A DNA stretch of 23,318 nt from a virus: positions 1 through 23,318 of IMG/VR virus record IMGVR_UViG_3300037452_000339. The stretch is one strand, 5' to 3'. The notes below the pieces were generated by a model. The model did not search any database. It was not told where the DNA came from and saw nothing but the letters and a program-made list of their open reading frames with translations. Of this stretch, positions 12,063 to 15,492 are shown in pieces. How positions within the stretch are numbered: position 1 is the stretch's first letter; each line of letters begins with the position of its first letter. The position numbers were made by a program, and so were the translations under genes.

Positions 12063-13160
12063 TCAATTGATCGGCCTGAATACCCTGTCCCAACGTACTT
12101 TGTGGAAAATATCTTTTGTTGAATCAGTGCTGAAAAAGTTCATCACCGCTTTGCCTATGATATGATCTTCCGGCACATACCCCCAAAACCGGCAATCCAG
12201 CGAATCGTGGCGGTTATCGCCCATCATCCAGTAATAATCCATTTTAAACGTGTAGGTATCTGCTTTTTGTCCGTTGATCAGGATGCCATTGGCGGTGGTT
12301 TCTACTTTATTATGTTCGTAAACTTCGATTGCGCGGCGGTAAAGGGCGAGCGTGGAATCATTAAGTTTTACCGTCCAGCCTTTTTTTGGCATTTGGATGG
12401 GGCCGAAATTGTCGATATTCCATTTAAAGTGCGGATCGTGCGGAAACACTGCTGTGTCCAAAACTCCGGCCGGTTGTATATAAGGTGTAACACTTTTTAC
12501 GTTTGAAAACGATTTTAACGTTGCAACGCTTTGTGCCGGCATTACTACTTCCATAGTATTAGCACCGAGCGGCTGCCGTATCTCCATGTGCAAATCTTCA
12601 AGCGCCTGTGGATTTATATCGGTCCCATCGGTAACTACCGCATAGGATGTTTGGGCTTTGGGTGCGTTCCATGACGCTTTACCGTTAATATATACATGGC
12701 TATTTACAATTGTTAATACGTCCCCGGGAGTTGCCTGGCAGCGTTTGATCAGCGTGGTACGCTGGTCTACTGGCACATCGAAATCGGCATCAGCCGGTTT
12801 GTTAAATACCACAACGTCGTATTTTTTAATGCTGGTAAACGCAGGCAAGCGGAAATAAGGCAGTTGAATAGCATCCGAGTAAGTGTTTATACCAAACATT
12901 TTGGGTTCGGTAAATGGTATGGAGAGCAGGGTTATGGGCATCCGTGCGCCATAGCTGCATTTACTTACAAAAAGGTAATCGCCGGTGAGTTCGCTTCCTT
13001 CCATTGAACCGGAGGGAATAGCATAAGCCGAAAAGAGTAAACCACGGACAATGGTGGCGGCAATCACTGCGAAAATCACAGCGTCGACCCATTCACGGAG
13101 CTTGGTTTTTTTAATTTTTGGCTTGTCTGATTTTTTCTTGAAAGGCAATTTCCAGTTCAT
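12063..13160 (-). CDS. lepB: Signal peptidase I
   Basis: The 365-residue enzyme would cleave signal peptides from secreted proteins at the outer face of the inner membrane. A basic N-terminus precedes one membrane helix (about residues 25-45). The family boxes follow: IPSGSME with nucleophile Ser52, TLIKRCQATPGD with general base Lys139, and MGDNRHDSLDCRFWGYVPEDHIIGKA (boxed region about 313-338). A long insertion between the Lys and MGDNR boxes is usual for Bacteroidota enzymes. All catalytic parts look intact. It is flanked by phage-type genes rather than by its usual housekeeping neighbours, and may be a second lepB copy carried as cargo or a host gene displaced by rearrangement. A perfect palindrome abuts the start codon. 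Confidence 0.95.
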   Translation of the reverse strand: MNWKLPFKKKSDKPKIKKTKLREWVDAVIFAVIAATIVRGLLFSAYAIPSGSMEGSELTGDYLFVSKCSYGARMPITLLSIPFTEPKMFGINTYSDAIQLPYFRLPAFTSIKKYDVVVFNKPADADFDVPVDQRTTLIKRCQATPGDVLTIVNSHVYINGKASWNAPKAQTSYAVVTDGTDINPQALEDLHMEIRQPLGANTMEVVMPAQSVATLKSFSNVKSVTPYIQPAGVLDTAVFPHDPHFKWNIDNFGPIQMPKKGWTVKLNDSTLALYRRAIEVYEHNKVETTANGILINGQKADTYTFKMDYYWMMGDNRHDSLDCRFWGYVPEDHIIGKAVMNFFSTDSTKDIFHKVRWDRVFRPIN

Positions 13161-13246: not shown

Positions 13247-13929
13247 TCATTCCCATATGACGAGCACACCATTTACCATCTCACTGCTTCTTACTGAAGT
13301 TCTTCTGTTATAAATTATACTATGCCGGTCCATCCCTAAAAGCCTACGCAAATAATTTTTCTTTTGTTCAGTTTCGGCGTTGGCTAAGAGGCCATTAATT
13401 ATGAAGGCCGCTTTTTCCGATTGGTTTGACAGTACCAAAGCAATTGTCCGTTGAATTTGCATCGATTCATAATGTTTATTTTTAACGCCGATTGAATCGA
13501 CGATAAAGCTAATGACGGACAATGCATCACTATAATATTTATTAGTAGATATTGTGTCACCTTTTAATTCATAGTATTCTCCGACTAAAATGGTACAATA
13601 GGTGTCTTCCGGCCATTTCTGTACAATTTTCCTCATCGTAATAAATAGACTATCTTGAAGTTTTAGTTCGCCAAAAATGTCCAGTTTGTCCAAGTAGCCA
13701 AAAAAGTAATTGCTATCGAGCGCTATTTGTTTGTTTTGAAGATTTAAAGCAATTCTCAATGCCTTTTCTCTTTCAATTGGGGACTGATAACCACTAATCA
13801 AGTCGCCGGCCTGTTTATTTAACTGTACAACTTTCGGATTGATCTTGTCCGGATAAATTTTGCCTGGGCAAATGCTTGCCGAAAACAGAAAACCAAGGCG
13901 AGAAGAAGAATATTCGAAATTTTATTCAT
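13247..13929 (-). pseudogene. Frameshifted secreted helical (TPR-like) protein
   Basis: An ATG at 13929 starts a clear Sec signal peptide (MNKISNILLLALVFC, then AFAQ), but this frame stops at 13819 after 36 codons. The rest of the protein continues in another frame, open from about 13921 to 13247. Its sequence picks up right after the signal peptide as KIYPDKINPKVVQLNKQAGD, then a helical body of about 185 residues with TPR-like helix pairs (EREKALRIALNLQNKQIALD and others). One inserted base near 13860-13866 would restore a single protein of about 225 residues. A -7 promoter element 20 bp upstream supports the 13929 start. No family is recognised. It is a pseudogene unless the frameshift is a sequencing error. 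Confidence 0.78.
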
Positions 13930-14028: not shown

Positions 14029-15081
14029 TTAAAAATAGGTATTCACCGCAAATTCAAACTGATCTAAAAATATCTTTTTAAAAGCGCTGATATTGTTTTG
14101 TTCATAAAATAGAAGCATGGCTTTTTTGTATTCTATTGAATCAACTGTTCTGAAAGAAATAGGGCAGTAGTGATAGGCAATTAATACTGCATTGCTTACA
14201 ATTCGTGCGGTCCTTTTGTTGCCGTCGCCAAAGGCTTGTATGTAGGAAAGCAATACTAATGCAAGCAGCGCTTTTTCGAGAACGTCTTTTTTACTGTTTA
14301 CCAGGATGCACATGTCATTTAGGGCATCGCGTATTTGGTGCTCGTTATCCAAAGGTGTGTAGTTGGTGCCCGATATACCTACGCGGCGTTGCCTGATATT
14401 CCTGTCGACCCCCAGATCTTTTATCAATATACTGTGGATGTCTTCAATCCCACGAATGTTGAGAGGCACTTCGTAATCCGGGTGTTCGACAATAAAATTT
14501 ATAGCCTCTTTGTGGTTTAGGAGCATAATGGCATCGTCTTTGGGTTTACCGGCAGCCGTTTCTTTTTCTCTTAACAAACGTTCGGTTTCCAAAAGCGAAT
14601 AAGTATTTCCTTCTATTTGCGATGATTTCCAGCTCAGATCGATCGCCAAACGCTCCAACTCCTTGCTGTAGGCGGAAGTTGACAGGTGTAATATGTTATC
14701 TGTAAACTTTTTATGCAGCGCGTCAGTCCGTTGTTTTTCTTCGTCAGTGAATAGATTAATATTACTTAAAACGTCCGTGATGAGTGTGAAATTGAAATTG
14801 TTTTTGATCTGTCTTTCATCCTGTTCCCTTTCAAAATATTGATTTAGGTCGATTGGTGACAATAACTCATAGGAGGGACTCAACTTATATCTTGTTGCCC
14901 TGCCTTTCCCGTCTGTGCTTATTAGGTTTTCTGAGCTAAGTGTATTCAGGATCCGTTTGACGGTCGCATAACCGATCGATCCCTTCAGTCCATCGTGTAT
15001 TTCTTTGGATGATTGCAGGGGATGATCTTTTAATTGATCTAATATTTGCGCGGTTAAGTCGTTTCTCATTTTGCGGCTCAT
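14029..15081 (-). CDS. Winged-helix Fic (Fido) domain protein with altered active site
   Basis: The 350-residue protein starts with a DNA-binding winged helix (about 8-67: SSKEIHDGLKGSIGYATVKRILNTL is the helix-turn-helix part). It continues with a Fic core (about 140-335). An inhibitory-helix motif S-x3-E-G is present at Ser153-Glu157-Gly158 (SSQIEGN), the known ATP-blocking element of class II/III Fic enzymes. The core motif, usually HPFxDGNGRxxR, here reads QAFGDGNKRTAR (282-293), so the catalytic His is Gln282 and the second Gly is Lys. Canonical members AMPylate proteins; this variant may be inactive or do different chemistry. The upstream region is packed with AGCTCA half-sites, pointing to autoregulation by the winged helix. 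Confidence 0.9.
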   Translation of the reverse strand: MSRKMRNDLTAQILDQLKDHPLQSSKEIHDGLKGSIGYATVKRILNTLSSENLISTDGKGRATRYKLSPSYELLSPIDLNQYFEREQDERQIKNNFNFTLITDVLSNINLFTDEEKQRTDALHKKFTDNILHLSTSAYSKELERLAIDLSWKSSQIEGNTYSLLETERLLREKETAAGKPKDDAIMLLNHKEAINFIVEHPDYEVPLNIRGIEDIHSILIKDLGVDRNIRQRRVGISGTNYTPLDNEHQIRDALNDMCILVNSKKDVLEKALLALVLLSYIQAFGDGNKRTARIVSNAVLIAYHYCPISFRTVDSIEYKKAMLLFYEQNNISAFKKIFLDQFEFAVNTYF

Positions 15082-15096
15082 TTGATAATCAAATAT

Positions 15097-15230
15097 AGCT
15101 CAAAATAATTCGATAATGAGCCTAAAATTACGAATTATTGAGCTTCATGTGTATTTAAGCTCAAGTTAAGTACATTTAAAGCTCAAAATCAGCCACTTTT
15201 GAGCTTTATGATTGTATTATATGAGCTTGA
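15097..15230. promoter_or_regulatory. Cluster of AGCTCA/TGAGCT operator-like half-sites upstream of the Fic gene
   Basis: AGCTCA or its complement occurs at 15097, 15139, 15158, 15179, 15200 and 15222 (the last as TGAGCT), plus TGAGC at 15117, all within 135 bp before the Fic start. The best dyad is AAAGCTCAAAA-N8-TTTTGAGCTTT at 15178-15207, perfect over 11 bp. A second, longer dyad pairs 15097-15112 (AGCTCAAAATAATTCG) with 15131-15144 (CGAATTATTGAGCT), with a 2-nt bulge. The natural candidate binder is the winged helix of the Fic protein encoded just downstream. Confidence 0.78.
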
Positions 15231-15255: not shown

Positions 15256-15492
15256 TTAATCGCCATCTTCAAAGCTATTCAGCGCCCGCCAAATAGTCCG
15301 CTCATCTTTCCCAAACCTTATTTCGGCTTCCAGCACTGCCTGGTTTTTGCTGATTCCGCGGGTTTTCATTTGAGCCTGCACCCAAAGATAGATTTCGCGA
15401 TAGGTAAAAATTTTGGCGGTAATAAAGCCGGCCCTGAACATTGCGGAGAATACGCCTTCGTCAAATAAAGTGTTTGCGAGTTGGATGGTCAT
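15256..15492 (-). CDS. Small helix-turn-helix-like phage protein
   Basis: The 78-residue protein is mostly helical. Its C-terminal half (ISKNQAVLEAEIRFGKDERTIWRALNSFE) has the spacing of a helix-turn-helix: a helix, a G-K-D turn, and a recognition-like helix ERTIWRALNSF. The N-terminal half has an aromatic-rich helix (TYREIYLWVQAQMKTRG). It follows the tape measure gene by 98 bp and precedes the Fic gene on the same strand, just upstream of the AGCTCA cluster. It could be a small regulator or a phage tail accessory protein; no family was recognised. Confidence 0.6.
   Translation of the reverse strand: MTIQLANTLFDEGVFSAMFRAGFITAKIFTYREIYLWVQAQMKTRGISKNQAVLEAEIRFGKDERTIWRALNSFEDGD

Follow-up and report, generated by a model that had tools for sequence, protein, structure and literature searches.

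A conserved fourfold palindrome as the likely autoregulatory operator of a winged-helix Fic gene in a Bacteroidota phage, with gene-less copies in phage tRNA arrays

The window analysed here is the whole 23,318-bp stretch of a virus record and carries on its minus strand genes for the head and tail of a phage (portal, head maturation protease and tape measure), together with a gene for a Fic protein and a repetitive promoter region whose features are the following:

14029..15081, minus strand: fic gene, coding for an N-terminal winged helix (about residues 10-66) and a class II Fic domain
15075..15144, minus strand: gene-proximal operator, with half-sites GGCTCA at 15075, AGCTCA at 15097, TGAGCC at 15117 and TGAGCT at 15139, spaced 22/20/22 and conserved in homologues
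15090..15097, minus strand: putative -7 promoter element TATATTTG (TAnnTTTG), assigned from its sequence, between the two gene-nearest half-sites and within the gene-proximal operator
15158..15227, minus strand: gene-distal operator, with half-sites AGCTCA at 15158, AGCTCA at 15180, TGAGCT at 15200 and TGAGCT at 15222, spaced 22/20/22
15256..15492, minus strand: F4-family gene (78 aa), kept in the phage group of the window and bounding the fic promoter region upstream

From homologue starts and alignments, the fic start is probably the ATG at 15067-15069, which is conserved there; the first ATG of the ORF (15079-15081) falls within half-site 1 of the operator. Control of a divergent gene by the operator was ruled out, as the upstream gene lies on the same strand. 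We identified no partner or neighbour gene family common to fic loci outside the phage group, and a toxin-antitoxin module, which would call for a conserved partner gene beside fic, is not supported. The head and tail gene block also includes a full signal peptidase I (Peptidase_S26) gene (12063-13160) that is kept in relatives. Between it and fic lies a gene for a secreted protein (13247-13929) whose frame is possibly disrupted, with a main ORF at 13247-13801 and a signal-peptide-like ORF at 13819-13929. An Acyl_transf_3 acyltransferase gene (1247-2233) lies on the plus strand, unlike the phage genes, and is possibly an O-antigen-modifying cargo.

Six of the half-sites are exact copies of AGCTCA/TGAGCT (15097, 15139, 15158, 15180, 15200 and 15222), the one at 15117 carries a single substitution, and an eighth (GGCTCA) occupies 15075-15080. 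The first-pass annotation of this region had reported seven half-sites in excess of chance, having overlooked the eighth, which extends into the beginning of the ORF; the cluster itself is real. None of 20,000 dinucleotide shuffles produced six exact half-sites in 134 bp (maximum 4), and any 6-mer with at least two G/C reached at most 5 copies in 5,000 shuffles. Chance clustering is ruled out by these shuffles, and a low-complexity explanation was also rejected.

The half-sites start at 15075, 15097, 15117, 15139, 15158, 15180, 15200 and 15222, with spacings of 22, 20, 22, 19, 22, 20 and 22 and orientations ++--++--. The array is a 70-bp fourfold palindrome, RGCTCA-N16-RGCTCA-N14-TGAGCY-N16-TGAGCY, repeated twice in tandem, and this single operator in two copies replaces the earlier description of loose half-sites with two dyads. 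What had been read as a longer bulged dyad (15097-15144) covers three half-sites out of the four that make up the gene-proximal operator, and the dyad placed at 15178-15207, the inner pair of the gene-distal operator, is indeed a perfect inverted repeat, but of 12 bp (15177-15188/15197-15208) rather than 11 bp. Consecutive half-sites are two helical turns apart, and the array spans both the -7 box and the fic start codon. We take this box to be a Bacteroidetes-type -7 element, of consensus TAnnTTTG, which is found within or next to 17 of the 27 operators linked to fic. Because it sits between the two gene-nearest half-sites, protein bound at the operator would obstruct the fic promoter.

Concerning the protein, a match to the Fic profile (PF02661: 51.3 bits, E 2.1e-13, cut-off 24) places it in the Fic/Fido family. 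The N-terminal winged helix noticed in the first-pass annotation is borne out by a match to Penicillinase_R (PF03965: 25.3 bits, cut-off 22.6) and by an AF2 model (pLDDT 91.3) that shows a winged helix at the N-terminus followed by a Fic domain, and whose best PDB matches are Fic/FICD folds, with FICD, BT_2513 and SoFic closest. The inhibitory motif SSQIEGN is present, with S149, E153 and G154 invariant in the alignment. In the Fic motif, QAFGDGNKRTAR, the catalytic His is replaced by Gln (Q278), and this Gln is found at the same place in 30 of 30 aligned homologues and in all validation homologues whose motif was read. The other residues of the motif (D282, G283, N284, K285, R286 and R289) are invariant, as are the anion/nucleotide-binding residues of the Fic domain. 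In Fic enzymes, loss of the catalytic His should abolish AMPylation. The protein lacks the His of HxFx(D/E)GN(G/K)RxxR that marks a catalytically competent Fic AMPylase, and AMPylation is not expected because of its replacement by Gln. The Fic domain is more likely to act as a ligand (nucleotide) sensor, or to perform an altered chemistry, than to be a normal AMPylase. The earlier proposal that the array ties Fic activity to its own transcription is made doubtful by the presence of Gln at this position in every homologue checked. Finally, the protein is not a member of SoFic as defined by the NCBIfam equivalog (18.2 bits against a cut-off of 550), and its matches to the PADLOC profiles SoFic (E 1.4e-20) and PDC-S04 (E 1.9e-16) indicate relatedness only.

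The array is conserved near homologues, a point on which the first-pass annotation had made its proposal of autoregulation depend: the geometry is kept, and the sequence mostly so, down to about 50% protein identity. In three viral homologues (72-87% identity) the half-sites are invariant and the spacers have diverged. Among 43 genome homologues, the ++-- array with 22/20/22 spacing is present at most loci with enough upstream DNA. Most homologues have one operator, whereas two copies separated by 17-30 bp are common in phage and Sphingobacteriales homologues. The same arrangement precedes homologues throughout Bacteroidota and in MAGs of other phyla; the loci include MAGs placed in Cloacimonadota, Verrucomicrobiota and Bacillota, individual members of which may be mis-binned. 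Homologues without AGCTCA often have a fourfold palindrome of the same geometry built on another word, such as AGCCCA (L008), CGCTCA (L031/L032), CTGACA (L033) or ATCAATCA (L037), and these words go with other changes in the recognition helix. At one locus (L030) the spacing is 32/22/32, with one extra helical turn in each arm, and the phase is therefore kept.

Two further searches, in which 10 of 147 and 15 of 151 genomes were positive, provided validation homologues that were not used to define the pattern. The operator was recovered with at most 4 of 24 mismatches in 13 of 17 members of this set, and with at most three mismatches in 11 of 17, a level reached by none (0) of the 238 control windows drawn from those loci. 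The four homologues without it (L224, L226, L227 and L241) coincide exactly with those in which the recognition helix has xxTxNR and not xxTxKR, with Asn in place of Lys. Three of these four, together with L039, which has the same helix type, carry CCT-type words (TTTCCTA and close variants) in the same geometry, and no clear half-site word was found at L241. This joint change of the KR/NR helix and the half-site word is the strongest evidence that the product of fic recognizes its own operator. A second, weaker trend links Tyr at helix position 2 to AGCTCA and other residues to CGGCTCA/CGCTCA, with exceptions such as L223; on a poorly resolved tree, it amounts to one independent pair of changes on supported branches.

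With up to three mismatches allowed, a search of 12 whole genomes located the full operator at the fic promoter alone, and found none in genomes with a different word. A global regulator with many targets was rejected on this ground, as far as full operators in these genomes are concerned. Among 395 sampled Bacteroidota-type genomes, six have operators: four with an adjoining fic, one with a decayed fic remnant (L085) and one with no fic nearby (L090). In the Bacteroidota-type genome with the remnant (L085:1091-1442), fic is decayed and the operator is nearly intact, with one mismatch. This Fic group is present in about 7-10% of sampled Chitinophagaceae- and Sphingobacteriaceae-type genomes.

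The operator is conserved, overlaps its own promoter and has a specificity that tracks the DNA-binding domain, as expected of an autorepressor. We consider it very probable that the array is the autoregulatory operator of a single-gene, self-repressing winged-helix Fic regulator in a Bacteroidota phage. The autoregulation proposed in the first-pass annotation gains support, at the level of sequence, from the conservation of the array, from a half-site word that follows the recognition helix and from the restriction of the operator to the fic promoter in the 12 genomes. One winged helix would contact each half-site, with an extended consensus wwTnnRGCTCA, and the four half-sites, which lie two turns apart on the same side of the helix, would probably be occupied by a Fic tetramer or by two cooperating dimers. 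Once bound, the protein would mask both the -7 box and the beginning of fic, and would thereby repress fic. Binding may be cooperative at one or two fourfold operators, with two in tandem in the phage copy and one in most chromosomal homologues. Alternatively, Fic may activate rather than repress.

The array might instead be bound by another, non-Fic regulator of host or phage origin and not by the winged helix of the adjoining gene. Phages that retain the site and have no Fic would fit such a regulator, which we nevertheless regard as improbable, given that the half-site words shift with the Fic recognition helix while the geometry is kept, that no other conserved gene accompanies the array, and that each genome has one operator location. 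It is more improbable still that the repeats are a DNA or RNA structure (an attenuator, or a replication or packaging element) and not protein sites. The inner pairs do form perfect hairpins, for example at 15177-15208, but hairpins leave unexplained the rigid 22/20/22 spacing and the occurrence of direct as well as inverted repeats, as they do the whole extra turn at L030 and the helix-dependent words; a hairpin or RNA element was rejected on spacing and helix covariation.

The closest known case to the autorepression proposed here is CccR of Yersinia pseudotuberculosis, a Fic protein with a C-terminal HTH that is a demonstrated autorepressor (PMC9755527). As here, a Fic domain is combined with a DNA-binding domain, and the CccR promoter is repressed via inverted repeats near the -35/-10 boxes (PMC9755527). 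However, the HTH of CccR is C-terminal rather than an N-terminal winged helix; it has an active catalytic His192 and AMPylates FtsZ, where our protein has Gln; it recognizes one inverted repeat, AGATAATCAT-N26-ATGATAATCT, and not a fourfold palindrome; and it is secreted by a T6SS. SoFic/EcSofic (PMC12249575) and CbFic2 (PMC10628234) are also class II Fic proteins with an N-terminal inhibitory helix and a similar fold. A wHTH is present in both CbFic2 and SoFic, and CbFic2 activity is altered when the protein binds DNA (PMC10628234, PMC12249575), but in SoFic/EcSofic and CbFic2 the wHTH is C-terminal and the Fic motif intact. The Bacteroides thetaiotaomicron Fic protein BT_2513 (PDB 3cuc) resembles the model with a TM-score of about 0.57-0.58 over the query, yet shares only 20% identity with it, and we found no operator study on it in the searched literature. 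Our data define a widespread group of single-gene Fic proteins, apparently self-repressing DNA-binding proteins without the catalytic His, for which an exact operator in hand makes binding, ligand and oligomer testable.

Copies of the operator also occur in phages away from any fic gene. A scan of IMG/VR for the exact operator returned 33 contigs, three of which have fic in the fetched locus; in the other 30 records, many of them possibly incomplete genomes, a whole-record profile search whose positive controls worked detected Fic in none. A scrambled half-site control gave no matches, and lengthening the inner spacing by one (N15) gave one contig against 36 for the correct N14. In 13 orphan representatives, grouped by eye from their flanks, a T at position -3 of the half-site, absent from the search pattern but also characteristic of the fic operators, is present in 49 of 52 cases (background 0.365, p 2e-18). 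The TAnnTTTG box accompanies only 2 of 23 orphans, a significant difference from the fic operators (p 1e-4). A relaxed pattern that includes the -3 T returned 59 stretches, some with CGCTCA or GATCA words as in divergent fic operators, and the loci fetched for them contained no further Fic.

The tRNA arrays of large phages contain such gene-less fic operators (L048-L078 and L093-L200; for example L048:1978-2047), usually between tRNA-Ile and tRNA-Lys, where the operator fills all but 5-7 bp of the gap, and other orphans lie far from tRNAs. We also collected 78 loci independently of the motif, via an HNH protein beside the tRNA array. Of these, 28 have the operator at 0-2 mismatches, mostly in the tRNA-Ile/tRNA-Lys gap, and 50 have nothing within five. 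Among 16 distinct copies from this set, pairwise difference is 0.073 in half-site columns against 0.279 in spacers (permutation p 5e-5); the half-sites are conserved relative to the spacers, and the orphan sites are therefore maintained. One orphan operator lies within an SbcC-like nuclease gene (L078:5407-5476), with a related form in L175, L179 and L198. No operator was found in the named phages immuto, phi17:2, phi4:1 and Lak-A1, nor in LR745206 and LR756502, which are huge uncultured phages, and tblastn of orphan-phage proteins against named phages revealed mostly no close relative. In the phage group of the window, 12 relatives found via the F4 gene have neither fic nor the operator; an apparent half of a decayed operator remains in L206. 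A phage found separately from the F4 set (L057) keeps one operator and has no fic.

Phages carry RNA and protein mimics of host components that neutralise toxin-antitoxin defence. The orphan operators would be alike in mimicking a host component, with the difference that the candidate is a non-coding dsDNA operator. They are copies without gene or promoter and under constraint, as a decoy element should be. We tentatively propose, as an extension of the autorepression reading, that unrelated large Bacteroidota-type phages repeatedly acquired and keep the promoterless 70-bp operator as a dsDNA decoy capturing the winged-helix Fic; it is conceivable, at somewhat less than even chances, that these phage operators sequester Fic made by the host or a resident prophage and thereby serve in counter-defence. 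This is the most attractive reading because the copies lack promoter and fic, recur across lineages and are constrained, and because related Fic proteins are anti-phage. It is also favoured by the absence of Fic from 30 of the 33 exact-operator contigs, by the specificity of the search in both controls, by the unsearched -3 T shared by orphans, by the scarcity of promoter boxes, by constraint in the motif-independent HNH set and by the tight fit into the tRNA-Ile/tRNA-Lys gap. Fic relatives such as SoFic are anti-phage toxins, SoFic acting by abortive infection (PMC12249575), and a DNA-bound Fic could be disarmed. However, titrating an autorepressor should raise fic expression, and a benefit to the phage therefore needs an inactive DNA-bound form. 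Moreover, the six named phages have no site, and loss of fic in the phage group of the window usually goes with loss of the operator as well.

The main alternative to a decoy is regulation of phage tRNA genes, the orphan being an ordinary site at which Fic from the host or a prophage, or some regulator that shares its specificity, would act on how the tRNA array is transcribed or processed. Many copies do lie directly between tRNA genes on one strand, but 21 of 23 have no TAnnTTTG box, some are distant from tRNAs, including the one inside the SbcC-like gene, and the flanking genes vary between lineages; we consider this alternative unlikely. The recurrence of the gene-less operator in phages predicts that this Fic is relevant to them, and makes counter-defence by a DNA decoy directly testable. 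If the decoy reading is true, the operator would be a non-coding anti-defence element in phage tRNA arrays. In the literature searched, which leaves out most subscription journals, we found no paper on this operator or on DNA decoys that phages direct at Fic proteins.

Relatives of the window's phage (L206-L216) have other sequence at the fic locus, immediately downstream of their F4 gene, and several of them carry repeats such as CACTGACAAACTACTGTCACCA followed by GATATTTG, perhaps a different operator-promoter unit.
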